Below are positions 1,585 to 56,722 of a stretch of 64,000 bases of DNA, one piece after another. Position 1 is the first letter of the stretch, and the number at the start of each line of letters is the position of its first letter. The notes beneath the pieces are model-generated. The model worked only from the letters and a program-made list of their open reading frames with translations, did not search any database and was not told the DNA's origin. Origin of the DNA: Panopea generosa (lineage: Eukaryota > Mollusca > Bivalvia > Adapedonta > Hiatellidae); NCBI GenBank assembly GCA_029582155.1, contig CM055901.1, positions 45,599,580 through 45,663,579 on the forward strand, written 5' to 3'. The position numbers and the translations under genes are program-made.

Positions 1585-1697
1585 TTATTCCCAGTGGATT
1601 TGGCATGTATATCGACCCTTATAACGTTTGAACATTTGATGTACCTCTGCCAGAACAGTGTGATACCTGCTGATCTGGCTGGTATAGTCAATACAGA
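1585..1697 (+). CDS. SZT2: SZT2 exon 1 of window
   Basis: 113 nt, start phase 0, ends in a partial codon GA. It encodes LFPVDLACISTLITFEHLMY and continues to IVNTE. Acceptor TTTTCAG, donor GA/GTAAGT. The last ~20 nt of the exon together with its donor are the seed of the 57-bp array that follows directly. Reading through the donor meets TAA at once (GAG TAA). Confidence 0.85.
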
Positions 1698-4600
1698 GTA
1701 AGTACTGTAACAAAGTTTGATACCTTAGTAACCAACCTGTCTGGTATAGTCAATACAGAGTAAGTACTGTAACGAAGTGTGAAACCTACCAACCTGTCTG
1801 GTATAGTCAATACAGAGTAAGTACTGTAACAAAGTGTGACACCTACCAACCTGTCTGGTAAAGTCAATACAGAGTAAGTACTTTAACAAAGTGTGACACC
1901 TATCTACCTGTTGAATATAATCAATGTAGAGTAAGTACTGTAACAAAGTGTGATGCTTACCAACCTGTCTGATATAATCAATGTAGAGTAAGTACTGTAA
2001 CAAAGTGTGACACCTACCTACCTTTCTGATATAGTCAATGTAGAGTAAGTACTATAACACAGTGTGATGCCTACAAACCTGTCTGATATAGTCAATGTAG
2101 AATAAGTTCTGTAACAAAGTGTGATACCTACCTACCTTTCTGATAAAGTTAATGTAGAGTAAGTACTATAACACAGTGTGACACCTACCTACCTGTCTGA
2201 TATAATCAATGTAGATGAGATCTTTAAGAAAGCGGGATGCCTACCAACCTGTCTGATATAGTCAATGTAGAGTAAGTACTGTAACAAAGTGTGACACCTA
2301 CCTACCTGTCTGATAAATTCAATGTGGAGTAAGTACTGTAACACAGTGTGACACCTACCTACCTGTCTGATATAGTCAATGTAGAATAAGTACTGTAACA
2401 AAGTGTGACACCTACCTTCCTGTCTGATATAGTCAATGTAGACTAAGAACTGTAACAAAGTGTGACACCTACCTACCTGTCTGATATAGTCAATGTAGAC
2501 TAAGAGCTGTAACAAAGTGTGACACCTACCTACCTGTCTGATATAGTCAATGTAGACTAAGAACTGTAACAAAGTGTGACACCTACCTTCCTGTCTGATA
2601 TAGTCAATGTAGAGTAAGTACTGTAACACAGTGTGATGCCTACCTACCTGTCTGATATAGTCAATGTAGACTAAGAACTGTAACAAAGTGTGACACCTAC
2701 CTACCTGTCTGATATAGTCAATGTAGAGTAAGTACTGTAACACAGTGTGACACCTACCTACCTGTCTGATATACTCAATGTAGAATAAGTACTGTAAGAA
2801 AGTGTGACACCTACTTACCAACCTGTCTGCTATAGTCAATGTAAAGTAAGTACTGTAACAAAGTGTGACACCTACCTACCTGTCTGATATAGTCAATGTA
2901 GAGTTAGTATTGTATGAAAGTGTGATACCTACCAACCTCTCTGATAAAGTCGATGTAGTGTAAGAACTGTAACAAAGTGTGATATTTGCCAATCTGTCTG
3001 ATATAGTCAATGTACAGTTAGTACTGTTACATGTTGTGATACCTACCAACCTGTCTGATATAGTCGATATAGTGTAAAAACTGTAACAAAGTGTGAGACC
3101 TTCCAACCTGTCCTTTATAGTCAATGCAGAGTAAGTACTGTAAGAAAGTGTGATACTTACCAACCTGTCTGATATAGTCAATGTAGGCAGAGTAAGAACT
3201 GTAAACAATGTGATATCTAACTTTATGTCTGATATTATCAATGTTGAGTTAGTACTGTAACAAAGTGTGATACCTACCAACCTGTCTGATATAATCAATG
3301 TAGAGTAAGTACTGTAACAAATTGTGATATCTGCCAATATGTCTGTTGTAGTAATTGCAGAGTAAATACTGGTATAAAGTTTGATACCTGCCAACCTGTT
3401 TGATATAGTCAGTGTAGAGTAAGTATTTTAAAAAAGTGTGACACCTACCCACCTGTCTGATAAAGTCAATGTAGAGTAAGTACTGTTACAAAGTGTGATA
3501 CCTACAAACCTGTCTGATATAGTCAATGTAGAGTAAGTACTGTAAGAAAGTGTGATACCTACAACCTGTCTGATATAGTCAATGTAGAGTAAGTACTGTA
3601 ACAAACTATGATACCTGCCAACCTGTTTGATATAGTCAGTATAGAGTTAGTACTGTAACAAACTATGATACCTACCCACCTGTCTGATATAGTCAATGTA
3701 GAGTAAGTACTGTAAGAAAGTGTGATACCTACAACCTGTCTGATATAGTCAATGTAGAGTAAGTACTGTAAAAAAGTGTGACACCTACCCACCTGTCTGA
3801 TATAGTCAATGTAGAGTAAGTACTATAACAAACTGTGATACCTATCAACCTGTTTGATATAGTCAGTATAGAGTAAGTACTGTAACAAACTATGATACCT
3901 GCCAACCTGTTTGATATAGTCAATGTAGAGTAAGTACTGTAACAAACTGTGATACCTATCAAGCTGCAGATCACAATACTGTGTGTACAATAGTTACAAA
4001 AGAGAAGTCTGTGAACAGGTAGCAGCATTTTTTTTTACTGTCACTAATGATTTATGATATCACAACATTGTGTTAAAGTGCACAATAATGCTTATATAGT
4101 TTCAGACCATGGGCTGGTACAATCATTGTGGTAAAGTGCACAATAATGGTTATATAATTTCAGACCATGGGCTGGTACAATCATTGTGGTAAAGTGCACA
4201 ATAATGTTGATATAATTTCAGACCATGGGCTGGTACATACATTGTTGTAAAGTGCACAATAATGGTTATATAATTTCAGACAATGGGCTGGTACAAACAT
4301 TGTGGTAAAGTGCACAATCATATGTATATAATTTCAGGTCATTGGCTGGTACAAACATTGTGGTAAAGTGCACAATCATGTGTATATAATTTCAGGTCAT
4401 TGGCTGGTACAAACATTGTGGTAAAGTGCACAATAATGGTTGTATAACTTCAGACAATGGGCTGGTACAAACATTGTGGTAAAGTGCACAATCATGTTTA
4501 TATAATTTCAGGCCATTCGCTGGTACAATCATTGTTGTAAAGTGCACAATCATGTTTATATAATTTCAGACCATAGGCTGGTACCAACATTGTGGTAAAG

Positions 4601-7600
4601 TGCACAATCATGTGTATATAATTTCAGGCCATTCGCTGGTACAATCATTGTTGTAAAGTGCACAATCATGTTTATATAATTTCAGACCATAGGCTGGTAC
4701 CAACATTGTGGTAAAGTGCACAATAATGATTGTGTAATTTCAGACCATGGGCTGGTACAAACATTGTGTTAAAGTGCACAATCATGTTTATATAATTTCA
4801 GACCATAGGCTGGTACCAACATTGTGGTAAAGTGCACAATAATGATTGTGTAATTTCAGACCATAGGCTGGTACCAACATTGTGTTAAAGTGCACAATAA
4901 TGATTGTGTAATTTCAGACCATGGGCTGGTACCAACATTGTGGTAAAGTGCACAATAATGATTGTGTAATTTCAGACCATGGGCTGGTACAAACATTGTG
5001 GTAAAGTGCACAATAATGATTGTGTAATTTCAGACCATGGGCTGGTACAAACATTGTGGTAAAGTGCACAATAATGTTGATATAATTTCAGACCATGGGC
5101 TGGTACAGACATTGTGTTAAAGTGCACAATAATGATTTTATAACTTCAGACAATGGGCTGGTACAAACATTGTGGTAAAGTGCACAATAATGATTGTATA
5201 ATTTCAGACCATGGGCTGGTACAAACATTGTGGTAAAGTGCACAATAATGTTGATATAATTTCAGACCATGGGCTGGTACAGACATTGTGTTAAAGTGCA
5301 CAATAATGATTTTATAACTTCAGACCATGGGCTGGTAGAAACATTGTGTTAAAGTGCACAAAAAGTGTTTATATTATTTCAGACCATGGGCTGGTACAAA
5401 CATTGTGGTAAAGTGCACAATAATGATTGTATAATTTCAGACAATGGGCTGGTACAAACATTGTTGTAAAGTGCACAATCATGTTTATATAATTTCAGAC
5501 CATGGGCTGGTAGAAACATTGTGTTAAAGTGCACAAAAAGTGTTTATATAATTTCAGACAATGGGCTGGTACAAATATTGTGGTAAAGTGCACAATAATG
5601 ATTGTATAATTTCAGACAATGGGCTGGTACAAACATTGTTGTAAAGTGCACAATCATGTTTATATAATTTCAGACCATGGGCTGGTAGAAACATTGTGTT
5701 AAAGTGCACAAAAAGTGTTTATATAATTTCAGACAATGGGCTGGTACAAATATTGTGGTAAAGTGCACAATAATGATTGTATAATTTCAGACAATGGGCT
5801 GGTACAAACATTGTTGTAAAGTGCACAATAATGATAGTGTAATTTCAGACAATGGGCTGGTACAAACATTGTGGTAAAGTTCACAGTAATGTTTGTATAA
5901 TTTCAGACAATGGGCTGGTACAAACATTGTGGTAAAGTTCACAGTAATGTTTGTATAATTTCAGACAATGGGCTGGTACAAACATTGTGGTAAAGTTCAC
6001 AGTAATGTTTGTATAATTTCAGACCATGGGCTGGTACAAATATTGTGGTAAAGTGCACAATAATGATAGTGTAATTTCAGACAATGGGCTGGTACAAACA
6101 TTGTGGTAAAGTTCACAGTAATGTTTGTATAATTTCAGACAATGGGCTGGTACAAACATTGTGGTAAAGTTCACAGTAATGTTTGTATAATTTCAGACCA
6201 TGGGCTGGTACAAATATTGTGGTAAAGTGCACAATAATGATAGTGTAATTTCAGACAATGGGCTGGTACAAACATTGTGGTAAAGTTCACAGTAATGATT
6301 GTATAACTTCAGACAATGGGCTGGTACAAATATTGTGGTAAAGTGCACAGTAATGTTTATATAATTTCAGACCATGGGCTGGTACAAATATTGTGGTAAA
6401 GTGCACAATAATGATAGTGTAATTTCAGACAATGGGCTGGTACAAACATTGTGGTAAAGTTCACAGTAATGTTTGTATAATTTCAGACCATGGGCTGGTA
6501 CAAACATTGTGTTAAAGTGCACAGTAATGTTTATATAATTTCAGACCATGGGCTGGTACAAATATTGTGTTAAAGTGTACAATAATGTTTATCTAATTTC
6601 AGACCATGGGCTGGTACAAACATTGTGATAAATTTCACAGTAATGTTTATATAATTTCAGACCATGGGCTGGTACAAACATTGTGGTAAAGTGCACAATC
6701 ATGTGTATATAATTTCAGGCCATTGGCTGGTACAAACAATGTGGTAAAGTGCACAATAATGATTGTATAATTTCAGACCATGGGCTGGTACAAACATTGT
6801 GGTAAAGTTCACAGTAATGTTTGTATAATTTCAGACCATGGGCTGGTACAAATATTGTGGTAAAGTGCACAATAATGATAGTGTAATTTCAGACAATGGG
6901 CTGGTACAAACATTGTGGTAAAGTTCACAGTAATGTTTGTATAATTTCAGACCATGGGCTGGTACAAACATTGTGTTAAAGTGCACAGTAATGTTTATAT
7001 AATTTCAGACCATGGGCTGGTACAAATATTGTGTTAAAGTGTACAATAATGTTTATCTAATTTCAGACCATGGGCTGGTACAAACATTGTGATAAATTTC
7101 ACAGTAATGTTTATATAATTTCAGACCATGGGCTGGTACAAACATTGTGGTAAAGTGCACAATCATGTGTATATAATTTCAGGCCATTGGCTGGTACAAA
7201 CAATGTGGTAAAGTGCACAATAATGATTGTATAATTTCAGACCATGGGCTGGTACAAACATTGTGGTAAAGTTCACAGTAATGTTTGTATAATTTCAGAC
7301 CATGGGCTGGTACAAACATTGTGTTAAAGTGCACAGTAATGTTTATATAATTTCAGACCATGGGCTGGTACAAATATTGTGTTAAAGTGTACAATAATGT
7401 TTATCTAATTTCAGACCATGGGCTGGTACAAACATTGTGATAAATTTCACAGTAATGTTTATATAATTTCAGACCATGGGCTGGTACAAACATTGTGTTA
7501 AAGTGCACATTAATGTATATATAATTTCAGACCATGGGCTGGTACAATCATTGTGGTAAAGTGCACAACAATGTTTATATAATTTCAGAACATGTGTTGG

Positions 7601-10600
7601 TACAAACATTGTGGTATAGTTCACAGTAATGTTTATATAATTTCAGACCATGGACTGGCACAAACATTGTGGTATAGTTCACAGTAATGTTTATAGAATT
7701 TCAGACCATGAGCTGGTACAAACATTGTGCTAAAGTGTACAATAATGATTATATAATTTCATACCATGGGCTGGTACAAACATTGTGTTAAAGTGCACAG
7801 TAATGTTTATCTAATTTCAGACCTTGGACTGGTACACACATTGTGGTAAAGTTCACAGTAATGTTTATATAATTTCAGACCATGGACTGGTACATACATT
7901 GTGGTAAAGTGCACAATAATGATTATATAGTTTCAGACTATGGACTGGTACAAACATTGTGTTAAAGTGCACAATAATGTTTATCTAATTTCAAACCATG
8001 GGCTGGTACACACATTGTGGTAAATTTCACATTAATGTTGATATAATTTCATACCATGGACTGGTACAAACTTTGTGTTAAAGTGCACAATAATGTATGT
8101 ATAATTTCAGACCATGGGCTGGTACGTACTTTGTGTTAAAGTGCACAATAATGTTTATATAAGTTCAGACCATGTGCTGGTACAAACATTGTGGTAAAGT
8201 CCACAGTAATGTTTATATAATTTCAGACGATGGGCTGGTACAAACATTGTGTTAAAGTGCACAATAATGTTTATATAATTTCAAACCATGGACTGGTACG
8301 AACATTGTGGTAAAGTGCACAATAATGTTGATATAATTTCAGACCATAGACTGGTACAAACATTGTGGTATAGTTCACAGTAATGTTTATATAATTTCAG
8401 ACCAGTGGCTGGTACAAACATTGTGGTAAAATGCACAATAATGATTTTATAATTTCAGACCATGGGCTGGTACAAACATTGTGGTAAAATGCACAATAAT
8501 GATTTTATAATTTCAGACCATGGGCTGGTACAAACATTGTGGTAAAGTGCACAATAATGATTATAAGATTATAAATTTTCAGACTTCAAGCTAAAACCAA
8601 CATCGTGGAAATATGTACAATGATGATTGTATAATTTCAAATCACAGGTTTATACCAACGTTGTGGTGAAATGTACTATAGAATAGTATAATTTCAGACC
8701 ATGGACTGATACTAACATTTAGGTAAAGTGTACAATAATGATATTGTAATATTAGAGCATGGACTGGTACCACTGTTTTGTAGTGTCCAATAATGAGTCG
8801 TATATATTTTCAGACAACAGACTGGTACAAACATCACATCACTGTCACAGACAATACAACATGTTGCTTTCCCATTCAATCTTCTATCCTTGCTTCCAAA
8901 GAGCCAGCAAGCAGAACTTATCTACCCTACATTTATATATGGTATGTACAATGTTTATATAAATAATGGAATCTTCTGTTTTATATGAGGTGGGATCAAA
9001 AAGTTTGTAGACTTTTGCCTTCACTTTTTTATTTATCATTGTCTCCTAATACATTCAGGGAGCCTCTATGCCGCTATATATTTTTCAGTAATTTTGTAAG
9101 ATTTTAATAATTTTCCGTGGTTAGTTTATATTCTGTTGCTACTATGGAAATGTCAATTTATGTAGTGGGGCAGTTTTTGCTTTTCTTTTCTACCTCTACA
9201 ATTAAGACAAGTGTAGCATTGTCATAGTTTTTTTAAAAAATAAATATGATCAATGTGTACTGTATTGAATGCTTGTTTACACCTTTCAAGAAAATGGCAC
9301 CAGTTATGCACATATTAAAATGGCCTCAATATTACAGTACGTCAATTTTGATTGACACAAAATGATGTCAGGGCTTGTGGAATACTGCAGTTTCATTAAG
9401 TTCTGCTCTTTGTCAGATTATACACCTGCTCGAACAGAGAAACATTTTAAGAGTGCCAATAATCAGTCATTAAAAAAGAACAAATACAAAGCCAATTTGG
9501 AGACATGTTTGAATTAAAACATGCTTTACAGAATATTGTGTCCAGTAAACCATCTTCGAATATTGTAAACATGCATTTGCACTCAATGTAGTCATTTTGC
9601 CCCAACATCTGTAACTGTTTGGCTTTGAATAGCACCTTATGTATTGAATAGTTGACATTTCATACAAAATTTTCAAAGTATATCCCATATTTATTTATTT
9701 CAAATACAATAACAATATTTTGCATTACATAATTGATATAAATCAGTTATGGCAAAAGTCTACGATCCCCCATTGTATATAAATAATGTATATGCGTAAC
9801 AGAATATGTAAGCATGATGTCATTGTACAGATAAATATGAATTGTGGATAATTATTAAGTACAGTCAAACCTGTCTTAAGCAGTCACTGAAGGGAAATAG
9901 CAAAACTGACCCCTCGAGGCAGATGATGCTTAAAACAAGTTGATTACAGCTAAAATTATGAAAATGGTAAATAGAAAATGTGGCTATTTATTTAAGACAG
10001 GTGGTTGCTTAATAGGGGTGACCACCAATACTGGTTAGACTGTATGTATTTGAGAGTTGAAAAGTGGCAGATCTATTTTGATCTTTGAATGTCAGTTTGA
10101 TTTATGAAATGTAAAAACTAGTTTATTCAATTGTTGTTTCTGTTACAGAGAAATAGTTTCTCGTTATCATTCTGGAAATGGAAGGTGTCATTTGTAAATG
10201 ACATCACAATGACTCACCAACTGTGAAAAAATTCTATTTATATAGACTGGGAAAATTCCAGTTTTAAGTAAATCATATAAAAAAGAAAATAATTTATAAG
10301 CTCTGTAAAATGTGAATGCTATTAGATTGTATTTTTGGTACACAAAGTTTACCATTATGCAGACTTGGCACTTAGATATATGTGAGAGATGATTGATTAA
10401 TTAAATCCAAAAACTGAATTCTTTAAAAACATTTTAAAAGATCCTAGTGCTTTTGAAATATATTATTTATTCTTCATCGGATGAAAGGTATTGCATACAT
10501 GCGAACTCCCCCGCATTGTGCACGAGTCTCGTGGAATCAAAGAGAAAATCTGTGAGTCCTGGACGGGATTCAAAATCTCCGACAATCACAATATCCTATG

Positions 10601-52600: not shown

Positions 52601-55600
52601 CAAGCCTTCATTTATATAGCCCCACATACAGCCAGAAAAACAGGTAAATATGTCTTATAATGTTATGTTATGTGAGTCAATAGTAAAGTGTTATGTTATG
52701 TGAGTCAATAGTAAAGTGTTATGTTATGTGAGTCAATAGTAAACTGTTATGTTATGTGAGTCAATAGTAAAGTAGCCAATCCAAGGAATGTTGTATTAAC
52801 ACAACAATAATTAGAGCACATGTTCTAGAGGTAAGTGTAGGGTTAGGGTTTGATCCTTATTTTGTATCCATAAATATGATGTTTATTCTACCTTTGTTTG
52901 AGATTGTGAGTGCAAAATTTGAAGTTATGAAAAATATTATGAAATTATAAAATTAATTTAAATTGTCATTTACTTAATGATATTTTGTAAGCCTTATAAA
53001 AAGTATTCTTTTTAAAATTTGCAAAAATATTTTGCAAATGAAATGTTCCAAGATGTCACAATTTGTCAGTACGAAATTCTTAAGACTTACAAAGGTTAGT
53101 GAAACAGGCCTCAGCTCTCTTATTATCTCCAGATCTTTAAGAAACTACACAGTCATTATCCTTTAACACTGTCTTTGATAATAAATCAGTTAATGTCTCA
53201 GTTGTGGCCTTTGAACCATCAACAGTTGTTATATTTTGAACAGTCTCCTATAGCACAGATGAGCAATTTTAGGTATTGCATATTCCTGGCAAATTGTTTA
53301 TGGTGTTCCAATGTGCAAACCATCTATTGACCTTGAGACAAACATGAGTTTTCAGGTGTAGCTTGTACCAGTATATGTTTGCCATCAATTTCAGGTGCAG
53401 CTTATACCAGTATATGTTTGCCATCAATTTTAGATGTAGCTTGTACCAGTATATGTTTTCCATCAATTTCAGGTGTAGCATGTACCAGTATATGTTTGCC
53501 ATCAATTTCAGGTGTAGCATGTACCAGTATATGTTTGCCATCGATTTCAGGTGTAGCTTTTGTCAGTATATGTTTGCCATCACTTTCAGGTGTAGCTTGT
53601 ACCAGTATATGTTTGCCATAAATTTCAGGTGTAGCTTTAACAGTATATGTTTGCCATCAATTTCAGGTGTAGCTTGTACCAGTATATGTTTGCCATCAGT
53701 TTCAGGTGTAGCATGTACCAGTATATGATTGCTATCAATTTTAGGTGCAGCTTGTTCCAGTATATGTTTGCCATCAATTTTAGGTGTAGCTTGTACCAGT
53801 TTATGTTTGCCATCAGTTTCAGGTGTATCATGTACCAGTATATGTTTGCTATCAATTTTAGGTGCAGCTTGTTCCAGTATATGTTTGCCATCAATTTTAG
53901 GTGTAGCTTGTACCAGTTTATGTTTGCCATCAATTTCAGGTGCAGCTTGTACCATTATATGTATGCCATCAATTTCAGGTGCAGCTTGTACCTCAGGTGT
54001 AACTTGTACCGGTCTATGTTTGCCATCAATTTTAGGTGTAGCTTGTACCAGTATGCATTTGCCATTCATTTTATGTGTAGCTTGTACCAGTCTATGTTTG
54101 CCATCAATTTTAGGTGTAGCTTGCACCAGTCTATGTTTGCCATCAATTTCAGATGTAGCTTGTACCAATATATGTTTGCCATCAATTTAAGGTGTAGCTT
54201 GTACCAGTATATGTTTGCCATTAAATTCATGTGTAGCTAGTACCAGTCTATGTTTGCCATCAATTTCAGGTGTAGTTTGTACCAGTATATGTTTACCATC
54301 AATTTCAGATGTAGCTTGTACCAGAATATATGTTTGCCATCAATTTCAGGTGCAGCTTGTACCAGTATTATGTTTGCTATCAATTTCAGGTGTAGCTTGT
54401 ACAAGTATATGTTTGCCATCAGTTTCATGTGTAGCTTGTACCAGTCTATGTTTGCCATCTATTTAAGATGTAGCTTGTGCCAGTATGTGTTTGCCATCAA
54501 TTTTAGATGTAGCTTGTACTAGTATATGTTTGCCATCCATTTTAGGTGAAGCTTGTACCAGTATATGTTTGCCATCAATTTTAGGTGTAGCTTGTACCAG
54601 TATATGTTTGCCATCAGTTCCATGTGTAGCTTCGACAAGTCTATGTTTGCCATTTATTTCAGATGTAGCTTGTGCCAGTATGTGTTTGCCATCAATTTCA
54701 GATGTAGCGCGTACCAGTCTATGTTTGCCATCCATTTTAAGTGTAGCTTGTACCAGTCTATGTTTGCCATCAATTTCAGGTGCAGCTTGTACCAGTATAT
54801 GTTTGCCATAAATTTCATTTGTAACTTGTACCAGTTTATGTTTGCCATTAATTTTAGGTGTAGCTTGCACCTGTCTATGTTTGCCTTCACTTTCAGATGT
54901 AGCTTGTACCAATATATGTTTGCCATCAATTTTTGGTGTAGCTTGTACCAGTATATGTTTGCCATCAATTTCATGTGTAGCATGTACCAGTCTATGTTTG
55001 CCATCAATTTCAGATGTAGCTTGTACCAGTATGTGTTTGCCATCAATTTCAGATGTAGCTTTTACCAGTATATGTTTGCCATCAATTTCATGTGTAGCTT
55101 GTACCAGTCTATGTTTGCCATCAATTTCAGATGTAGCTTGTACCGGTATATGTTTGCCAACAACTTTAGGTGTAGCTTGTACCAGTCTATGTTTGCCATC
55201 AGTTTCATGTGTAGCTTGTACCAGTCTATGTTTGCCATCTATTTCAGGTGTAGCTTGTACCAGTATGTGTTTGCCATCAATTTCATGTGTAGCTTGTACC
55301 AGTATATGTTTGCCATCAATTTCATGTGAAGCTTGTACTAGAATGGGTTTGCCATCAATTCCAGGTGTATCTTTTGTTAGTTTATGTTTTCCATCTATTT
55401 CAGGTGCAGCTTGTACCAGTATATGTTTGCCATCAATTTCATGTGTAGCTTGTACCAGTATATGTTTGCCGTCAATTTCAGGTGAAGCTTGTACTAGAAT
55501 GTGTTTGCCATCAATTCCAGGTGTAGCTTTTGTTAGTTTATGTTTTCCATCTATTTCAGGTGCAGCTTGTACCAGTATATGTTAGCCATCAGTTTCAGGT

Positions 55601-56722
55601 ATAGCTTATACCAGTATATCTTTGCCATCAATTTCAGGTGTAGCTTATACCAATATATGTAAGCCATCAATTTCATGTAAAGCTTGTACCAGAATGTGTT
55701 TGCCATCAATTTCAGGTGTAGCTTTTGTCTGTATATGTTTGCCATCTATTTCAGGTGCAGCTTGTACCAGTATATGTTTGCCATCAGTTTCAGGTATAGC
55801 TTGTACCAATGTATGTTTGCCATCAATTTTAATGTGTGGCTTGTACCAGTATATGTTTGCTATCATTTTCAGGTGTAGCTTGTACCAGTATATGTTTAAA
55901 CTCAATTTCAGGTGTAGCTTGTAACAATATATGTTTGCCATCAAATTTAGTTGTAGCTTGTGTCAGTATATGTTTGCCATCAATTTCAGGTGTAGCTTGT
56001 ATCAGCATATGTTTGGTTGATGGTCAAGGTAACCAAGTTAAGTTGCTCCAGTGCCCCAAACCCTCAAGTCTGGCCTATATGGACATAGAGACCAAGGAAG
56101 ACTTGGAGGCTTTTGTTGTCACACAAGTGTATGAGATGAAACACCAGGGCAAGAAACCAGGTTTGCATGTGCAGTATTTGAAAATTGAAAAACTAGTCTT
56201 GTTATAAAATTATTGTCTTATGTCTTCTACTTCTTCAACTTGATATAGAAAATGAAAACAATTAAAACAATTTTTGGCAACTCTCTGTTTTGTACTATGT
56301 CGGTTGTGATATGAGTAACTGCCTTGAGCGTTTATTTCCATTACTTTTCATACAGTATGTACATGTTAAAATTTATCATTGAAATAATTCTGTAACAAAA
56401 GCAATTTTATTGGGTATAAATTTGTGACGACACTTGAAGTGAATAAAAAATAAATATAATTTTTATAATTTCATGAGTTGTATATCTATGGCAGGACCTA
56501 CAGCCTTGATCCAGTTCCATATCTGGGAACGAGGCGACGTGGAGATTCCCGTGCTGCAGGAGAAACTGATTTTGTCACTGAAACACACGCTGTGTGATGT
56601 CGTCATGGAGTATTATGTGCTGACAGCACCCCTATGTGAGATTCCTAAAAATTTGAAGGAGTTACTCCCTCCCCTGCCCACACTGTCATCTGCACCCTCC
56701 TCACCTTACTGTAGCATGCAAG
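1585..56722 (+). CDS. SZT2: SZT2 homolog (KICSTOR subunit), 25 internal exons, both ends missing
   Basis: In vertebrates SZT2 is the very large scaffold of KICSTOR (with KPTN, ITFG2 and KICS2), which holds GATOR1 at the lysosome and restrains mTORC1 when amino acids are scarce. The chain rests on 25 exons, each bounded by AG and GT, whose phases all match and whose joined frame has no stop; the sum is 5,749 nt, about 1,916 codons, against roughly 3,400 residues in vertebrate SZT2. Family identity comes from recognised blocks: LFPVDLACISTL (exon 1), VFQSLQKGH and FLHASCGHFQQL (exon 6), FINFTCTVKSRL (exon 9), RRRMPNFWLIMQIGS (exon 14), CPCVWRTSFYIHPGL (exon 17), ALRSVLNTFSVNNRNNMF (exon 18), and HTLCDVVMEYYVL (exon 25). 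Exons 3 and 13 are long, serine-rich and probably disordered. No start codon, promoter or stop of this gene lies in the window. A C-type lectin gene is nested antisense in intron 18, and several introns carry arrays of copied exon edges. I recognised the family from memory; no alignment was run. Confidence 0.88.
1679..3965 (+). repeat. 57-bp array of the exon 1 donor, about 40 copies
   Basis: Each unit repeats the last ~20 nt of exon 1 (CTGGTATAGTCAATACAG, later CTGATATAGTCAATGTAG), then the splice donor (AGAGTAAGTACTG) and about 25 nt of intron. Successive GTAAGT sites lie at 1698, 1760, 1817, 1874 and 1931, so after the first step the spacing is exactly 57. Copies nearest the exon keep the exonic ACAG; later ones carry GTAG. 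Minus-strand open frames across it (19-residue period) are by-products of the 57-bp period, not genes. Confidence 0.95.
4063..8813 (+). repeat. 58-bp array of the exon 2 acceptor, about 80 copies
   Basis: The unit is TATATAATTTCAG followed by ACCATGGGCTGGTACAAACA, then TTGTGGTAAAGTGCACAATA. It matches the true acceptor and head of exon 2 (TATATTTTCAG, then ACAACAGACTGGTACAAACA). In the SZT2 frame the unit gives PWAGTNIV where the real exon gives QQTGTNIT. Each copy has an AG acceptor and a GTAAAG donor-like site 25 nt later. Copies decay towards exon 2 (8580-8813). A 464-bp higher-order period (8 units) is visible, for example 6661 versus 7125. Confidence 0.95.
8814..8941 (+). CDS. SZT2: SZT2 exon 2
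   Basis: 128 nt: one base completes GA-A (Glu), then 42 codons, then G. It encodes EQQTGTNITSLSQTIQHVAF and later NLLSLLPKSQQAELIYPTF. Acceptor TTTTCAG, donor ATG/GTATGT. It is the parent of the 58-bp array immediately upstream. Confidence 0.85.
8985..9775 (+). mobile_element. mariner-like element remnant
   Basis: About 0.8 kb between imperfect inverted ends: GGGATC...GTAGACTTTTGCC at 8992-9019 and its reverse complement at 9751-9770, the left end carrying ~8 extra bases. Near 9366 a short + strand frame (MSGLVEYCSFIKFCSLSDY) resembles the start of mariner transposases, where IKFC followed by a GKT-type segment is usual. It ends quickly, so the copy is dead. It sits just behind the donor of exon 2. 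TA target duplication is plausible but the AT-rich flanks do not settle it. Confidence 0.5.
9860..10044. mobile_element. MITE, TACAGTCAAACC family, copy 1
   Basis: About 185 bp with inverted ends: TACAGTCAAACCTGTCTTAA on the left and GGTTAGACTGTA on the right, with inner subterminal copies of CTTAAGCAGTCAC/GTGACCACC type. A second copy lies at 51389-51570. Non-autonomous; no ORF. Confidence 0.7.
10045..11986. other. intron 2 remainder, AT-rich
   Basis: No gene recognised. Short open frames at 10447-11102 on both strands have no family resemblance. It contains one strong imperfect hairpin at 10907-10948 (TGGTCTTGTGGTTTTT against AAAAAACCACCAGGACCA). The final acceptor is TTTTTAG at 11986. Confidence 0.5.
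11987..12996 (+). CDS. SZT2: SZT2 exon 3 (long)
   Basis: 1,010 nt: 2 nt complete G-AT (Asp), then 336 codons, ending phase 0 at ATA AAG/GTCAGT. It starts DPDEKNPENQKSAKESNYLL and contains FSLIFEELHASNHREVTL, a long Ser/Gln/Glu-rich stretch (about residues 60-240) that is probably disordered, and a more conserved end LYLPVYVYDCVTHNVLDSLI. The start is set by the acceptor, upstream of the first Met in this frame. Confidence 0.85.
12997..13639. other. intron 3
   Basis: AT-rich intron. At 13490-13570 there is a stretch resembling the tail of the tRNA-derived SINE seen complete at 43346-43575 (GCTACTCAGATTTATTC). Nothing else was recognised. Confidence 0.5.
13640..13678 (+). CDS. SZT2: SZT2 exon 4 (39-nt microexon)
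   Basis: Exactly 13 codons, SIQNLRRSDRVDQ, between TTTGTATAG and CAG/GTTAGTG; phase 0 at both ends. It could be skipped without changing frame. The call rests on splice sites and phase only, so it is weaker than the other exons. Confidence 0.6.
14000..14138 (+). CDS. SZT2: SZT2 exon 5
   Basis: 139 nt, starts phase 0, ends phase 1 (AAA G/GTAATG). It encodes DEEDSSYRYSWRSQERRS and later ENLWQHCASLSEMHYHCYVK. It joins in phase to exon 6, continuing with GVFQSLQKGH. Confidence 0.8.
14215..14940 (-). repeat. ~177-182-bp tandem repeat, 4 copies, with an open PAN-like minus-strand frame
   Basis: The landmark AGGACACTCATACTTGGAT recurs near 14344, 14526, 14703 and 14881. On the - strand each unit reads QCQWTMKCRSHSASAVYNVM followed by VSCNYDPSMSVLA; the frame stays open across about two units (177 nt = 59 codons). 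The cysteine spacing and the AVYNV...SCNYD pattern are reminiscent of PAN/apple domains, but this is only a resemblance. It is either a tandemly copied exon of an antisense gene or a repeat that happens to be open. No splice-linked partner was found. Confidence 0.6.
14941..16980. other. intron 5, AT-rich stretch
   Basis: No gene, RNA or clear repeat recognised. It contains long homopolymer A and T tracts at 16030-16115. Confidence 0.5.
16981..17597 (+). mobile_element. non-autonomous element with 10-bp inverted ends and internal ~147-bp tandem units
   Basis: It begins ATACCCCCGA (16981-16990) and ends with the exact reverse complement TCGGGGGTAT (17588-17597). Between them lie about four tandem copies of a ~147-bp unit starting ACATAACTCTATTCTTGCTA and containing CCTTGTCCGGAGCATAACTT and GAATTTCATCAAGCTTCATA. 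Copy number is estimated by eye. No ORF of note. The class is not identified. Confidence 0.6.
17598..18324. other. intron 5, end
   Basis: A degraded dispersed repeat with a 20-plus-base T tract near 17880-17900 and phrases (CTGAAACCACTAAGCC) shared with the palindrome-ended repeat family. No gene was seen. Confidence 0.45.
18325..18589 (+). CDS. SZT2: SZT2 exon 6
   Basis: 265 nt, enters phase 1 (G-GT), leaves phase 2 (GAA AT/GTATGT). It encodes GVFQSLQKGHIIECQDVDAA, then ICEESLPLETNITTFLHASC, GHFQQLVNEV and an acidic tail. The SLQ(R/K)G...D block followed by IT.FL...CGH is one of the strongest SZT2 signatures here. Confidence 0.88.
18590..19918. other. intron 6 with SINE fragment and microsatellite
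   Basis: Mostly AT-rich. At 19180-19275 lies an antisense tRNA-derived SINE head (GGGGTTAGAACTAACAACCT on +, the reverse of a B-box, followed by CACTACACTAGCGCC). At 19551-19650 a TCTTCTACAATG/TCTACAACG microsatellite is open in several frames on both strands but is not a gene. Confidence 0.55.
19551..19650. repeat. ATGTCTTCTACA-type microsatellite
   Basis: Alternating 12- and 9-base units TCTTCTACAATG and TCTACAACG. Because the units are multiples of three, frames on both strands remain open (Ser/Thr/Met on +, Asp/Val/Glu on -). No splice or start context supports coding. Confidence 0.8.
19919..20138 (+). CDS. SZT2: SZT2 exon 7
   Basis: 220 nt, takes 1 nt to finish AT-T (Ile), ends phase 0 at CCA ATG/GTAAAC. 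It encodes IDTPSLNKHIPSVLEIPKVT, LHGLIKNKVLDCVQKWFRPV and PDFYFYCPETPM. Acceptor TATTTAAG. Confidence 0.85.
20652..20703 (+). CDS. SZT2: SZT2 exon 8
   Basis: 52 nt, NEELSDDRETTASDAGT plus G; acceptor TTTTTTGCAG, donor ACAG/GTAAAA. Acidic linker. It joins in phase to GMANTATDLPEAD of exon 9. Confidence 0.78.
21100..21235 (+). mobile_element. tRNA-derived SINE fragment
   Basis: GAGTGGGTGGTCCAGGGGTT, then GGGTCGTGGGTTTAGTTGG (B-box-like) and the tail phrase GGTTCTACCCGAAAGACTTGG shared with other SINE copies in the window (37729, 49945). Diverged. Confidence 0.5.
21501..21822 (+). mobile_element. palindrome-ended dispersed repeat, copy a (truncated)
   Basis: It begins AGCTCTACTTGCCAAAGGCC, a mutated form of the family's left hairpin CTGGCCAAAGGCCAG, followed by the family phrases TTAGCAGCACTTTCTCTGAA and TTCAAGATGGCTACC. 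It breaks off into the TATATGATATAG satellite. Confidence 0.7.
21830..22265. repeat. TATATGATATAGTTCAAGTA satellite, copy 1
   Basis: Irregular ~34-40-bp tandem units TGCTATATGATATAGTTCAA + GTATTACACC. The same satellite, with the same flanking phrase (TGCTATATGCAGGAGTATAA) and followed by the same palindrome-ended repeat, occurs at 61080-62960. The two blocks are paralogous. Confidence 0.85.
22329..23239 (+). mobile_element. palindrome-ended dispersed repeat, copy b
   Basis: An end-to-end copy: left hairpin CTGGCCAAAGGCCAG, internal CACATGGATGTTTCTATTGC duplicated near 22448 and 22950, and right hairpin AGGCCCTCTTGGGCCT. No coding capacity. It ends about 80 bp before SZT2 exon 9. Confidence 0.8.
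23319..23585 (+). CDS. SZT2: SZT2 exon 9
   Basis: 267 nt, phase 1 in and out (donor TTG A/GTAAGT). It encodes GMANTATDLPEADVTMV, an acidic stretch SEESMEDDADLDIDF, then SPLFINFTCTVKSRLQQYS and ISLKNIAACL. The PLF...LTC.V(K/R)SR block is typical of SZT2. Acceptor TGTCCCCAG. Confidence 0.87.
23586..25731. other. intron 9
   Basis: A 2.1-kb AT-rich intron. I see no gene, RNA, tandem array or clear mobile element; a short piece at 25500-25590 has SINE-like wording in antisense. Confidence 0.5.
25732..25936 (+). CDS. SZT2: SZT2 exon 10
   Basis: 205 nt, phase 1 in, phase 2 out (TCC AT/GTAAGT). It encodes SELSTVIENLSEVDLGDLKI, TFDLNCLTLPSDLE, then a serine-rich tail SNSSLGGYSNSSSDAGDRL. A mobile repeat begins only 26 bp after its donor. 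Confidence 0.86.
25963..26830 (+). mobile_element. palindrome-ended dispersed repeat, copy c
   Basis: It starts GCTCTACTAGCCAAAGGCC (one hairpin mismatch) and carries the family phrases twice (near 26080 and 26580). The right end is lost. It begins 26 bp inside intron 10. Confidence 0.75.
26831..27641. other. intron 10 remainder
   Basis: AT-rich. Short local duplications of CATAGCATGAGGATTTTATG-type sequence at 26950-27060. No gene seen. Confidence 0.5.
27642..27720 (+). CDS. SZT2: SZT2 exon 11
   Basis: 79 nt, takes 1 nt (AT-T, Ile), ends phase 0 at GAA GAG/GTAATA. It encodes DVKHLRDPIVHLPQMQQDAV and TKCMEE, then joins IELLLRDEIV of exon 12. Acceptor TACTTTTAG. Confidence 0.85.
27721..30010. 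other. intron 11, left part
   Basis: AT-rich. 27855-27950 matches the SINE tail found at 43346-43575 (GGTGGCTCTACTCAGATTTA, then AATAAAACTGGATATGCCAT). A ~38-bp direct duplication lies at 28430-28495 (CCATAAATAGATATATTCTA). Nothing else recognised. Confidence 0.5.
30011..30511 (+). pseudogene. mobile-element ORF relic with a 2A-like motif and a cysteine-protease-like segment
   Basis: The frame 30011-30310 runs QWRCKIGSFSG, then a hydrophobic stretch (LFMLIILC) ending in GDVERNPGPP, which fits the D-V/I-E-x-N-P-G-P consensus of 2A-like ribosome-skipping peptides. After the motif the same frame gives VNGYFHQDHQIC, one stop codon (30308-30310), then GRPCCLAFFANAFLKQFDSF and LYAGDYLYRSTKE up to a final stop near 30511. 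The pattern (G-x-(F/Y)HQ..., a Cys-containing helix, GD.LY) resembles the OTU/C76-like protease segment I associate with helicase-coding mobile elements; that assignment is inferred. The internal stop marks the copy as dead. It lies in SZT2 intron 11. Confidence 0.6.
30512..31190. other. intron 11, right part
   Basis: AT-rich, no features recognised beyond the acceptor GTGTGGACCAG at 31190. Confidence 0.45.
31191..31382 (+). CDS. SZT2: SZT2 exon 12
   Basis: 192 nt, 64 codons, phase 0 at both ends. It encodes IELLLRDEIVSNLRRIPPIK, VTKHIHTSHEIGKANV and VESVPLQFVFGVEQSKEKFM. Donor GAG/GTTTGC is weak but the next exon continues the block as EFQKMNLQSYQL. Confidence 0.86.
31383..31988. other. intron 12
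   Basis: AT-rich; GATTATGGGTTCAAATCTAG near 31530 is B-box-like and may be a SINE trace. No gene recognised. Confidence 0.4.
31989..33363 (+). CDS. SZT2: SZT2 exon 13 (long)
   Basis: 1,375 nt, phase 0 in, phase 1 out (ACA T/GTAAGT). The first ~45 residues are conserved (EFQKMNLQSYQLIKEEKWYY, LAMKRMIGYNFINAVDLSSA). The rest is a long Ser/Pro/Lys-rich region with repeated (R/K)RRS motifs (INRRRSKD, ERRRSCD) and SSP motifs, probably disordered and open to phosphorylation. The antisense frame at 32342-32620 is a shadow. Confidence 0.88.
33364..33848. other. intron 13
   Basis: 485-bp intron with no recognised feature. Confidence 0.5.
33849..33987 (+). CDS. SZT2: SZT2 exon 14
   Basis: 139 nt, phase 1 in (T-CG), phase 2 out (CAT AG/GTAAGT). 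It encodes SYDGDMSEIDDSATTF, RRRMPNFWLIMQIGSTVVDI and LYHH. The PNFWLIMQ..., V.(I/V)..H pattern is a strong SZT2 signature. Confidence 0.88.
33988..34959. other. intron 14, left part
   Basis: AT-rich, no recognised gene or repeat. Confidence 0.45.
34960..35762 (+). repeat. ATGTTAATTGTGT array enclosing three decayed copies of the exon 15 head
   Basis: A short-period repeat (TTAATTGTGTATG, ~13-14 bp) is interrupted by three ~75-nt copies of the start of exon 15, each with its own AG, at 35068, 35234 and 35399. Copy 1 stays open for ~27 codons (SITIYTREMGHESNEEMM); copies 2 and 3 carry frame breaks or a stop. Each is preceded by GTGGACAGCCAG or TGGACAACCAG like the true exon. Confidence 0.9.
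35763..35880 (+). CDS. SZT2: SZT2 exon 15
   Basis: 118 nt, takes 1 nt (AG-T, Ser), ends phase 0 at CAG/GTAAGA. It encodes SITVYTRETGHESNEEMIEQ, LLAQVKANVEETCRKVNQ. The acceptor (GGACAACCAG) has almost no pyrimidine tract. Three upstream decoy copies share it. Confidence 0.84.
36205..36480 (+). mobile_element. tRNA-derived SINE
   Basis: The head GTGTATAGAATGTTGGCTAC plus GAGGTTGCAGGTTTGATCCC (A- and B-box-like), then CTCTGGTTCTACC...GGAAATGGATT repeated three times, and a tail ending CGAGCTAAAATAAATCAGTA. It is related to 37729-37965. Confidence 0.7.
36640..36908. repeat. 48-bp minisatellite, 5-6 copies
   Basis: The unit is TAGGTTATAATTATGATACC + TTTATACAGCAACCATAGAA + TAAATTCA. Its 16-codon period keeps an antisense frame open. 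Not visibly derived from an exon edge. Confidence 0.9.
36909..37543. other. intron 15, end
   Basis: AT-rich with no recognised feature; acceptor TGCTTTTCTAG. Confidence 0.5.
37544..37676 (+). CDS. SZT2: SZT2 exon 16
   Basis: 133 nt, phase 0 in, phase 1 out (AGC A/GTAAGT). It encodes LLLLYNLYETRMCHALLVDA and ADEDVSWKLDKGPKL. It directly continues CRKVNQ of exon 15 into NQLLLL..., a block typical of SZT2. Confidence 0.87.
37729..37965 (+). mobile_element. tRNA-derived SINE
   Basis: The head GGGCGGTAGTGTAATGGATA...GGTTGTGGGTTCGATCCCC has clear A- and B-box sequences, followed by the tail phrase GGTTCTACCCAGGAAGCGG and an end TCAAACTAAAATAAATTAG. This is the best-preserved SINE of this family in the window. 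Confidence 0.8.
37966..38624. other. intron 16, middle
   Basis: Contains a diverged dispersed repeat (ATACACGGGCTGGAGGATTG, then TGAGTTATGGCCCTTTTCAA). No gene. Confidence 0.45.
38625..38895 (+). repeat. ~33-35-bp array of the exon 17 acceptor, about 8 copies
   Basis: The unit is GTAATTGATCTCAG + GTTCAAACTGTTTCATGTT. The true acceptor ends the array as GTAATTGTTTGCAG followed by GTTCAGAGAATGAGG. The second copy even keeps GTTCAGA after its AG. Each unit has an AG in acceptor-like context, though with a weak pyrimidine tract. Confidence 0.85.
38896..39063 (+). CDS. SZT2: SZT2 exon 17
   Basis: 168 nt, phase 1 in and out. It encodes SSENEEDDDDMFERKYLAAA, DLNPGHFDCPCVWRTSFYIH and PGLKRGSGRGSTMSI. 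The C.CVW.T.F..HP.L block is a clear SZT2 match. Donor ATTG/GTAAGA. Confidence 0.9.
39064..40102. other. intron 17
   Basis: Contains a dispersed repeat at ~39090-39310 (TATTATACCCAATAACAAAG, then GTTATTGCCCATGACTTGAT) and SINE-tail-like sequence at 39590-39745 (GGCTCTACTCAGATTTATTC). No gene. Confidence 0.5.
40103..40202 (+). CDS. SZT2: SZT2 exon 18
   Basis: 100 nt, phase 1 in (G-GT), phase 2 out (TTG AG/GTATGT). It encodes GVKALRSVLNTFSVNNRNNM and FVIKETTGNVYYL. This is the most recognisable SZT2 block in the window. Intron 18 that follows is 6.8 kb and hosts a nested antisense lectin gene. Confidence 0.92.
40260..41060 (+). repeat. ~180-bp tandem repeat, 4 copies
   Basis: Units start CTGTAGACACCCAGGTTAAA at about 40273, 40455 and 40634, with a diverged fourth from ~40800. 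Each contains GGATATGAATGAAACTTTGC and TTATGGCCCTTTTG, a wording I associate with dispersed bivalve repeats. No coding frame is kept. Confidence 0.85.
41213..41218 (-). promoter_or_regulatory. possible polyadenylation signal of the lectin gene
   Basis: AATAAA on the - strand, about 1.5 kb beyond the lectin stop and beyond its satellite. If used, the 108-bp array would be part of the lectin 3' UTR. A single hexamer in AT-rich DNA is weak evidence. Confidence 0.25.
41388..42777 (-). repeat. 108-bp array derived from the lectin terminal exon, about 12 copies
   Basis: On the - strand each unit reads TATCAATGGGGAGATGTACC and onward to a stop, that is YQWGDVPCTSHYEPICEMK-stop, followed by ~48 nt matching the lectin 3' flank. 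The true gene ends YQWGDVPCTSHFEPICELK-stop. Seven central copies (41879-42616) are almost identical at an exact 108-bp period (36 codons); those at both edges are diverged. The long + strand frame across it is a by-product of the period. Confidence 0.93.
42712..42926 (-). CDS. lectin exon 4 (terminal)
   Basis: 215 nt: CT completes Ala, then 70 codons and TAA. It holds WLGMTDEDVEGVWKWYNTK, the QPG variant of the calcium motif, EDC, WGD and the last two cysteines. Acceptor TTTCCTTAAAG. Its last ~60 nt seeded the 108-bp array. Confidence 0.88.
42712..45155 (-). CDS. secreted C-type lectin, single CRD, 4 exons, nested in SZT2 intron 18
   Basis: Joining 45107-45155, 44366-44466, 43713-43806 and 42712-42926 (minus strand) gives 152 residues with matching phases and a TAA stop. 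Residues 1-17 are a signal peptide (MMAKFTYLLILLAYFFG). The CRD follows: CTDCPDRWVAFQGSCYEF, YEAENYCRQHHDSHLLQIET, HWLGMTDEDVEGVWKW, and a C-terminal block with EDC, WGD, VPC and ICELK. Six cysteines fit the long-form CRD pattern. Calcium/sugar site 2 is unusual: QPG stands where EPN or QPD is usual, and WGD where WND is usual, so sugar specificity cannot be predicted and may be lost. Such lectins in molluscs often act in the haemolymph, gut or mucus in microbe recognition or feeding. Antisense to SZT2; a TATA box lies upstream. Confidence 0.88.
43346..43575 (+). mobile_element. tRNA-derived SINE, second family
   Basis: A head with GGTCATAGGTTCAAGTCCTG (B-box), the body phrase GTTTCTACTCAGATTCTGAT, CCTCCAATAAAATTGGATAT and the end GTTGAAAAAAGCATTAAACC. 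Related partial copies lie at 13490, 27855, 39590, 50320 and 52130. It sits in the lectin intron 3. Confidence 0.75.
43713..43806 (-). CDS. lectin exon 3
   Basis: 94 nt, NYCRQHHDSHLLQIETALEN then AFVKDILTGHK plus G. Acceptor TTTGACATCAG, donor AAAG/GTGCGT. Confidence 0.87.
44366..44466 (-). CDS. lectin exon 2
   Basis: 101 nt: GT completes Gly, then HSSCTDCPDRWVAFQGSCYE and FPYNKPMTFYEAE. Acceptor CACTTTCAG, donor GAG/GTGACA. Confidence 0.87.
45107..45155 (-). CDS. lectin exon 1 (signal peptide)
   Basis: 49 nt: MMAKFTYLLILLAYFF plus G, donor G/GTAAGT. Two adjacent ATGs (45155 and 45152) could start; the upstream one is taken by convention. The hydrophobic core is typical of a signal peptide. 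Confidence 0.85.
45229..45234 (-). promoter_or_regulatory. TATA box of the lectin gene
   Basis: CCTTATAAAGG on the - strand, 74 bp upstream of the lectin ATG. Transcription ~30 bp downstream would give a 5' UTR of about 45 nt. It fits an inducible, tissue-specific secreted protein. Confidence 0.6.
45781..46480 (+). mobile_element. diverged relative of the palindrome-ended repeat
   Basis: It begins AGCTCTACTGGCCAAAGG like the main family, then differs. It carries an internal duplication (TTCATTTTTCATTGAAT near 45880 and 46188; GAACCAGTGTGAATCGA near 45953 and 46260). No ORF. Confidence 0.55.
46481..46700 (-). mobile_element. tRNA-derived SINE, third family (antisense)
   Basis: Shared wording: GCACTGCCACACTGGAGTGC, AAATGCTGAGTGCCAAGTGA, GGGGATTGGACCCACCACC (antisense B-box). 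Related copies at 49680-49915 (same orientation) and 60845-61010 (opposite). Confidence 0.65.
47032..47090 (+). CDS. SZT2: SZT2 exon 19
   Basis: 59 nt, takes 1 nt (AG-A, Arg), ends phase 1 (AAT G/GTAAGA). It encodes RLKELQAGISRTSMAPEDSN. Short, but its phases fit both neighbours and YYLRL completes the exon 18 block. Confidence 0.82.
47091..47476. other. intron 19
   Basis: 386 bp, nothing recognised. Confidence 0.5.
47477..47653 (+). CDS. SZT2: SZT2 exon 20
   Basis: 177 nt, phase 1 in and out (GCG G/GTATGT). It encodes DSLSMSSGLKRDGTEVLTTP, a serine-rich stretch ISISSSTSTLSLSQSQ, and HDYVELNVHGIQEAG. The VEL.VHGI end is the conserved part. Confidence 0.87.
47939..49650 (+). mobile_element. 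palindrome-ended dispersed repeat, copy d (longest)
   Basis: Both ends present: CTGGCCAAAGGCCAG on the left and AGGCCCTCTTGGGCCT near 49629-49644. The internal ~640-bp segment (ACTGAAACTTCACATGGGTG...) occurs three times (near 48061, 48701, 49328), so copy length varies by internal tandem duplication. Short frames in it are not genes. Confidence 0.8.
49680..49915 (-). mobile_element. tRNA-derived SINE, third family (antisense)
   Basis: AGTGCTGCTACACTGGAGTA, AAATGCTGAGCGCCAAGCGA, GGGGATTGAACCCATGACC (antisense B-box), and GGACTCTCTACCCTTGGACC (antisense A-box region). The best-preserved copy of this family. Confidence 0.7.
49945..50100 (+). mobile_element. SINE fragment
   Basis: GTTGTCTAGTGGTGGAGCAT, then the shared tail phrase GTTCTACCCAGGAAG and CAATCAAAGTAAAATAAATA as in the SINE at 37729. 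Confidence 0.5.
50509..50633 (+). CDS. SZT2: SZT2 exon 21
   Basis: 125 nt, phase 1 in, phase 0 out (GTG CAG/GTTAGA). It encodes GKEIKEHLVQLLQSKLDEAT, LDKIFEMLRRNPQCQLDRED. A conserved helical block of SZT2. The exon itself begins GTAAGG directly after the acceptor AG, which looks like a donor but is coding. Confidence 0.88.
50634..51187. other. intron 21
   Basis: AT-rich, no recognised features. Confidence 0.5.
51188..51352 (+). CDS. SZT2: SZT2 exon 22
   Basis: 165 nt, 55 codons, phase 0 both ends. It encodes FIQRPSSDPTTSLHCTVSNK, ASPHLAAVMYYLRQNLLQYL and HPPKYKSSNTDNHFM. Donor ATG/GTGAGT. Confidence 0.88.
51389..51570. mobile_element. MITE, TACAGTCAAACC family, copy 2
   Basis: 182 bp from TACAGTTAAATCTG to GACAGGTTTGACTGTA; inner CTTAAGCAGTCACC repeats. 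Same family as 9860-10044. Confidence 0.75.
51883..52125. mobile_element. MITE with ~33-bp inverted ends, copy 1
   Basis: The left end is TAAGGCCATTATAAATTAAC + TGTTAGATTATCATCC and the right end reads GATAATCTAGCAATTAATTT + ATTATGACCTTA, its near reverse complement. The centre is T-rich. A second copy is at 60013-60271. Confidence 0.75.
52126..52290 (+). mobile_element. SINE fragment, second family
   Basis: GCAGAGGTTGTGGGTCCTAG, then GTGGTTTACTCAGATTCATT and CCTCCGCCGACAAAACTGGA, matching the SINE at 43346. Confidence 0.55.
52562..52643 (+). CDS. SZT2: SZT2 exon 23
   Basis: 82 nt, phase 0 in, phase 1 out (ACA G/GTAAAT). It encodes DTFDGKQAAIPTDQAFIYIA and PHTARKT. The next exon supplies GT to complete Gly. 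Confidence 0.86.
52660..52775. repeat. ~28-bp minisatellite, 4 copies
   Basis: TTATGTTATGTGAGTCAATA + GTAAAGTG repeated just after the exon 23 donor (from 17 bp into the intron). It does not include the donor itself. Confidence 0.85.
53352..55989 (+). repeat. 39-bp array of the exon 24 acceptor and head, about 67 copies
   Basis: The unit is GTTTGCCATCAATTTCAG + GTGTAGCTTGTACCAGTATAT. It equals the true acceptor (CCATCAATTTCAG) plus the first ~27 nt of exon 24 (GTGTAGCTTGTATCAGCATA + TGTTTG). At 13 codons per unit, the frame gives GVACTSICLPSIS repeatedly, matching the exon start GVACISICLVDG. Nearly every unit keeps TTTCAG/G or TTTTAG/G; a few have lost the AG (TTTCATG). Indels near 54000, 54320, 54370 and 55830 break the array into several open segments. 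Antisense frames across it are by-products. Confidence 0.95.
55990..56160 (+). CDS. SZT2: SZT2 exon 24
   Basis: 171 nt from the last AG of the array, phase 1 in and out (CCA G/GTTTGC). It encodes GVACISICLVDGQGNQVKLL, QCPKPSSLAYMDIETKEDLE and AFVVTQVYEMKHQGKKPG. The start is uncertain: AGs at 55872, 55911 and elsewhere upstream are in the same frame (39-nt steps) with no stop back to about 55836, so longer forms with extra 13-residue units are possible. Confidence 0.82.
56161..56494. other. intron 24
   Basis: 334 bp, nothing recognised. Confidence 0.5.
56495..56722 (+). CDS. SZT2: SZT2 exon 25 (last in window)
   Basis: 228 nt, phase 1 in and out (CAA G/GTAACA). It encodes GPTALIQFHIWERGDVEIPV, KLILSLKHTLCDVVMEYYVL and LCEIPKNLKELLPPLPTL. 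The LCDVV.E...L...LC block is typical of SZT2. The coding sequence continues beyond the right edge. Confidence 0.88.

Follow-up and report, generated by a model that had tools for sequence, protein, structure and literature searches.

The SZT2 locus and the nested lectin gene

The window, as the term is used here, is the whole stretch of 64,000 nucleotides of the Panopea generosa genome that was analysed (C8:45599580-45663579, in an assembly of 1.47 Gb and 39 contigs). Its host gene is SZT2 (KICSTOR): the concatenated open frames match human SZT2 in PDB with an E-value of 1.6e-57, and the proteins closest to the most conserved SZT2 stretch are those of Dreissena polymorpha (60% identity) and Potamilus streckersoni (SZT2, 57% identity). 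When 100 kb was added per side, the SZT2 exons were found to span window coordinates of approximately -95.8 to +117.8 kb. SZT2 is thus at least 214 kb in length, with its 5' end beyond the sequence covered. A C-type lectin gene (bp 41388-44600, minus strand) is nested in an SZT2 intron, and the peptide joined from its exon pieces matches Lectin_C with an E-value of 1.2e-8. Near the start of the window, bp ~295-700 are 66-85% similar to approximately 40 places on many chromosomes and probably represent a dispersed repeat.

SZT2 exons were mapped by tblastn with mollusc SZT2 proteins combined with a simple splice-site score. Two acceptors were corrected by hand, that of exon 24 from 55873 to 55990 and that of exon 15 from 35763 to 35781, and both corrections were verified by junction peptides. 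The resulting list of 91 SZT2 borders, 47 of them outside the window, is approximate: exons with too low a tblastn score were missed, and two false borders are included because a long exon at ~31953-33404 was split into two clusters. One tblastn cluster scoring below 35 bits, which is one of the copies of the 103 kb array, was excluded from the list. The features discussed below are collected in Table 1.

Table 1. Exons and tandem arrays of the SZT2 locus and border arrays of the myosin and kinesin sample (positions in window coordinates unless a contig is given; a slash in a motif marks the exon border)
Feature	Position	Strand	Basis
SZT2 exon called exon 1 in the preliminary description; seeds array A at its donor	1585..1697	+	tblastn with Sinanodonta SZT2
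Array A, 57 bp x 40.4	1657..3966	+	Tandem Repeats Finder (TRF)
Array B, 58 bp x ~81	4064..8838	+	TRF to 8770, degenerate copies on into exon 2
SZT2 exon 2	8814..8941	+	Mollusc SZT2 proteins, junction peptide
Three copies of exon 15 acceptor and head, period 164 bp	35004..35541	+	TRF, sequence reading
SZT2 exon 15	35781..35880	+	Mollusc proteins; 79 aa junction without gap
Exon 17 acceptor array, 33 bp x 8.7, units TCTCAG/GTTC	38612..38900	+	TRF
SZT2 exon 17 (3' end approximate)	38896..39071	+	Mollusc proteins, junction peptide
Lectin array, 108 bp x ~10-12	41593..42772	-	TRF, 108 bp x 9.9 at 41714-42772
Open frame with terminal exon of C-type lectin	42715..43047	-	Lectin_C
Exon 24 acceptor array, 39 bp x ~68	53350..56015	+	TRF, two rows of 16.5 and 51.8 copies
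SZT2 exon 24	55990..56160	+	84 aa junction without gap versus Dreissena
Acceptor array, 43 bp x 16	border -89922; C8:45508964-45509666		TRF
Donor array, TRF period 258	border 103241; C8:45702796-45703904		TRF
Sample donors with border array: L036, L050, L068, L084, L106			
Sample acceptors with border array: L040, L048, L074			

Arrays at exon borders in the window

Of the window arrays, four run across a splice border: the donor of exon 1 and the acceptors of exons 2, 17 and 24. They extend over 41, 25, 5 and 26 nt of these exons, respectively. The unit of array A consists of ~41 nt of exon end, a GTAAGT donor and the start of the intron, while that of array B carries a TTTCAG acceptor followed by ~16-25 nt of exon start. 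For array B, the endpoint of 8838 was set by hand from individual copies lying past the TRF end at 8770. In the exon 24 array the unit reads TTTCAG/GTGTAGCTTGT..., and in the exon 17 array the AG is included with only ~5 nt of coding sequence, less than the 10-60 nt attributed to such units in the preliminary description. Exon 15 had been described as preceded by three copies of its head, and these were indeed found upstream, with ~75 nt of exon, and are followed by a 13-bp repeat; a copy scan around the heuristic border at 35763 placed the head at four places, including the exon itself. Elsewhere in the window, a 179-bp repeat is present in four copies at bp 40271-40996, 68 nt past the donor at 40202, and the border lies outside the repeat.

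The lectin array is of a different kind. Its unit, with TRF matches of 95%, contains the last ~45 coding nt, the stop codon and downstream DNA, and includes no splice border. As the copies comprise the coding end and the stop, this is an exon-end array and not a splice-border array. All five arrays originally proposed to be copies of an exon border were recovered by TRF; four lie at splice borders, and the fifth proved to derive from a coding 3' end.

Six SZT2 junctions were joined at their exon-proximal splice sites and aligned with the best mollusc SZT2 (Sinanodonta, Potamilus or Dreissena). Five of the six peptides align without a gap over 73-100 residues, and the sixth is interrupted by a gap of two residues within an acidic stretch. 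For example, the exon 1 junction aligns with mollusc SZT2 over 78 aa without a gap at 58%. The exon-derived portion of each unit is conserved coding sequence and the peptides are colinear, so the array derives from the exon and not the reverse, which bears out the proposed origin of the four splice-border arrays. Furthermore, since the exon-proximal sites yield peptides that align with mollusc SZT2, each array should leave whole in splicing. Specifically, the mRNA should join exon 1 to exon 2 using the first of ~40 donors and the last of ~80 acceptors and, judging from these alignments, the border arrays are apparently harmless to the encoded protein.

Border arrays elsewhere in the genome

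Two of the 47 SZT2 borders outside the window carry a border array, compared to 0.9-1.2 expected from random placement of collapsed units. Border arrays were also sought in a sample of 80 exons from other genes, made up of 60 of 81 myosin-head matches (taken best first, then so as to exclude exons that overlapped or were duplicates) and, from a kinesin search with 126 matches, 20 exons (best first, with one duplicate skipped). Flanks of 350 or 200 bases were used; the 20 kinesin exons had 200 bases only, which slightly undercounts arrays away from borders. Arrays with a unit of less than 20 bp or a length of less than 80 bp were dropped, a filter that removed three listed arrays (L045, L065 and L075), none of them at a border, and changed the proportion at borders from 8/23 to 8/20. 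The L068 donor was entered by hand, with the same value as that given by the heuristic.

A splice site lies inside an array at 8 of the 160 sampled borders, in 8 of the 80 exons, a frequency of 5% (95% interval 2.2-9.6%). The sample flanks hold 12 further arrays that passed the filter and lie away from the border. Both types of border are affected: donors at exon 1, at 103241 and in the sample, and acceptors at exons 2, 17 and 24, at -89922 and in the sample. As myosin and kinesin genes have arrays of the same kind, the phenomenon extends beyond SZT2, and the idea of an oddity of this one locus is rejected. Two of the 12 arrays away from the border (L046 and L093) end 7 nt before the exon, in the pyrimidine stretch, and do not include the AG.

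Placement of arrays relative to borders

Arrays cover 59.6 kb of the 264 kb analysed (23%). At 73 of 300 random positions in the SZT2 gene there are at least three spanning copies, as against 6 of the 91 borders, and by this measure borders are depleted of arrays. The coverage of random positions is nevertheless ill suited as a null, since an array cannot extend across an exon. When seeds were instead placed in collapsed SZT2, 6 border arrays were seen (7 if exon 15 is counted) where 2.0-2.7 were expected. In the myosin and kinesin sample, 8 were seen compared to 2.1 expected from the rate of non-border arrays in the same flanks. A conservative null conditioned on the flanks gave 8 seen and 4.8 expected (P=0.07) for the sample, 10 and 6.5 (P=0.085) when SZT2 outside the window was added, and 15 and 8.1 (P=0.007) when the window was included, the last being a count in which the window had been picked for the feature and exons 2 and 15 were added by hand. 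Similarly, three of the four window arrays of at least 500 bp and at least five copies lie on splice borders compared to 0.2-0.3 expected, again in a window picked for this feature.

The positions of array ends were also compared. Outside the window, 10 ends lie within the exon, and the four successive 60-nt classes of intron contain 2, 5, 6 and 2. A distance test with 10 of 23 ends in the border class, set against the first three intron classes, gave P=0.04 for a class of 60 nt and P=0.005 for one of 41 nt that was fixed post hoc. With only the loci having 350-base flanks, and without a copy-number filter, the border class holds 8 ends and the following 180 nt hold 10 (P=0.057).

Across the whole genome, the donor word CAGGTAAGT forms 730 triples with minisatellite spacing, compared to 311 for a backwards control (277 versus 132 with a narrower spacing), while single words number 16114 versus 12171, a ratio of 1.32 as opposed to 2.35 for triples. 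The difference agrees in direction with an excess at borders. The triple counts are clumped by array, with dozens of the listed matches coming from a single array on contig C1. This array (G000:C1:56270862-56298303) is ~27 kb in length and consists mostly of a 58-bp unit with dozens of copies of CAGGTAAGT; the context is mostly TTACAG/GTAAGT, in which acceptor-like and donor-like signals meet at one point.

Taken as repeats, the window arrays are far beyond chance; taken as border placement, they amount to a modest excess. Overall, borders exceed nearby intron by approximately 1.5-4 fold, with P from 0.005 to 0.09 depending on the null. A modest excess at borders is therefore likely and a true border bias possible, and the mechanism that had been suggested to copy exon borders in particular is not upheld by an excess of this size.

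The interior of exons presents a different picture. Of arrays with units ≥20 bp and lengths ≥80 bp, none was situated entirely within any of 126 exons, where ~4.7 were expected from the rate in introns (P=0.009). The small repeats within these exons are two in number, one of 13 bp x 1.9 and one with a 3-bp unit. The absence of exon-interior arrays fits their removal by selection.

Conservation and growth of the copies

If extra splice sites were of use to the host, the splice dinucleotides might be expected to stand out among the columns of the repeat unit. In array A, 32 of 40 full copies retain the GT (0.83 for the mean dinucleotide), and 53 of 68 full copies of the exon 24 array retain the AG (mean 0.84); both fall below the mean. 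The AG is above the mean in the other three arrays, being intact in 77 of 82 copies of array B (mean 0.855), 8 of 9 copies at exon 17 (mean 0.79) and 16 of 16 copies at -89922 (mean 0.88). The dinucleotide columns at least as conserved as the splice site number 45 of 56 for exon 1, 23 of 57 for exon 2, 32 of 38 for exon 24, 16 of 32 for exon 17 and 15 of 42 for -89922. In none of the five arrays, therefore, are the splice dinucleotides among the best-conserved columns, at least 15 columns being equal or better in each.

As the splice signals rank no higher than other columns, these figures give no pointer to selection for extra sites, and the copies look neutral as far as their sequences can tell. 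Retention of additional splice sites as decoys, for splice-site buffering or for the timing of splicing, which the preliminary description had put forward as a selective effect, could account for the GT or AG being kept in most copies and for the three arrays above the mean. It is nonetheless very improbable, given the two arrays below the mean and the many equally conserved columns in all five.

The copies do not point to a single direction of growth across arrays. Identity to the exon unit in array A is 0.85 near the exon, 0.80 in the middle and 0.82 at the far end; the corresponding values are 0.67, 0.73 and 0.75 for array B and 0.87, 0.85 and 0.89 for the exon 24 array, the last showing no trend. 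The decay previously noted in array B, where the copies nearest the exon are the most degenerate, is thus clear, while the opposite trend described for array A is weak. Similarity between adjacent copies is barely above that between distant copies in the exon 1, 2 and 24 arrays and somewhat above it in the exon 17 and -89922 arrays.

Adjacent copies differ by approximately 7-16% and are individually recognisable. Arrays are a known cause of assembly error, and the amphioxus work includes a case with an aberrantly assembled genome draft (PMC3087553), but an assembly artefact is hardly credible here, since the copies can be told apart, the contigs are chromosome-sized and the same pattern appears at independent loci.

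Origin of the border arrays

We consider that these arrays most probably reflect ordinary minisatellite birth in which the seed happened to lie across an exon border and the product was tolerated on the intron side (a probability of roughly 0.7). Such an array would be founded when a 30-260 bp piece straddling the border is duplicated in tandem, and would then grow by slippage or unequal exchange, the processes by which minisatellites turn over. Growth on the intron side would leave the exon undamaged and its splice site outermost, as the first donor or the last acceptor, and it is the presence of this usable site that would allow the array to be tolerated. The spliceosome would presumably pick the outermost site, so that the entire array would be removed with the intron and a border array would be near neutral. 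Birth inside an exon, on the other hand, would be eliminated by selection. Under ordinary minisatellite birth, the very high frequency at which arrays arise in this genome would explain why approximately one border in 20 carries one.

The main alternative is that growth is ordinary and birth is not, arrays being seeded preferentially at exon borders, for example at R-loops, through stalled transcription or during repair at bound splice sites. The 1.5-4 fold excess over nearby intron, the three of four large window arrays on splice borders (in the window chosen for them) and the greater enrichment of donor-word triples than of single words would all be accommodated by such a bias. We regard it as unlikely for three reasons. 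First, the significance of the excess depends on the null and the arrays are few. Second, the lectin array lies at a stop codon. Third, the arrays of L046 and L093 stop short of the exon without taking in the AG. The position of the lectin array also led us to reject an origin specific to the spliceosome as the sole route. It is similarly doubtful that array birth in this bivalve lineage is drawn to borders in such a way that about one internal exon in 10 (8/80) carries a minisatellite of its own edge.

Comparison with known systems

Minisatellite-like tandem duplications of intron-exon borders, called "mirages", have been described in amphioxus for Adh3, the globins BflGb6 and BflGb9, PGBD5 and troponin C. 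According to these reports, both 5' and 3' borders are involved, many copies carry AG or GT, splicing is undisturbed and cluster boundaries are excluded from homogenisation (PMC3087553, PMC3902484). The arrays described here share with them a tandem unit that contains the exon-intron border, at donors as well as acceptors, and an AG or GT in many copies. The differences are that the host is a bivalve and not a lancelet, that there are up to ~81 copies compared to the 3-6 units given for BflGb6, that the frequency was measured over a sample of exons (8/160 borders), and that the present data are one assembly whereas somatic or allelic length change is reported for amphioxus. The border arrays are mirages of the amphioxus type, now in a mollusc; what is new is their greater length and the measured frequency. 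Among the papers listed in literature searches, which excluded most subscription journals, none deals with border arrays in a bivalve or other mollusc as judged by its title or the opening of its abstract.

The border arrays resemble ordinary intronic minisatellites or VNTRs, of which SZT2 is full, in unit length and divergence, and are unlike them in that the units hold coding sequence and a splice signal. A further parallel is the Rogers model of intron gain by tandem genomic duplication, which is mentioned in PMC3087553. Multiplied splice signals beside an exon are common to both situations; here it is an existing intron that has been lengthened. The potato RdRp gene is said to have gained an intron by tandem genomic duplication.

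Implications

The presence of border arrays in P. generosa suggests that mirages are not confined to lancelets. Genes that carry them are natural tests of how the spliceosome chooses among dozens of near-identical sites, and the arrays provide material from which introns may be gained by tandem duplication. If approximately 5% of borders are affected, gene prediction may often set exon edges in the wrong copy. Should the birth of arrays prove to be drawn to borders, natural genes in which tandem splice sites compete would number in the thousands, and with them would come an ongoing supply of new introns and exon extensions.
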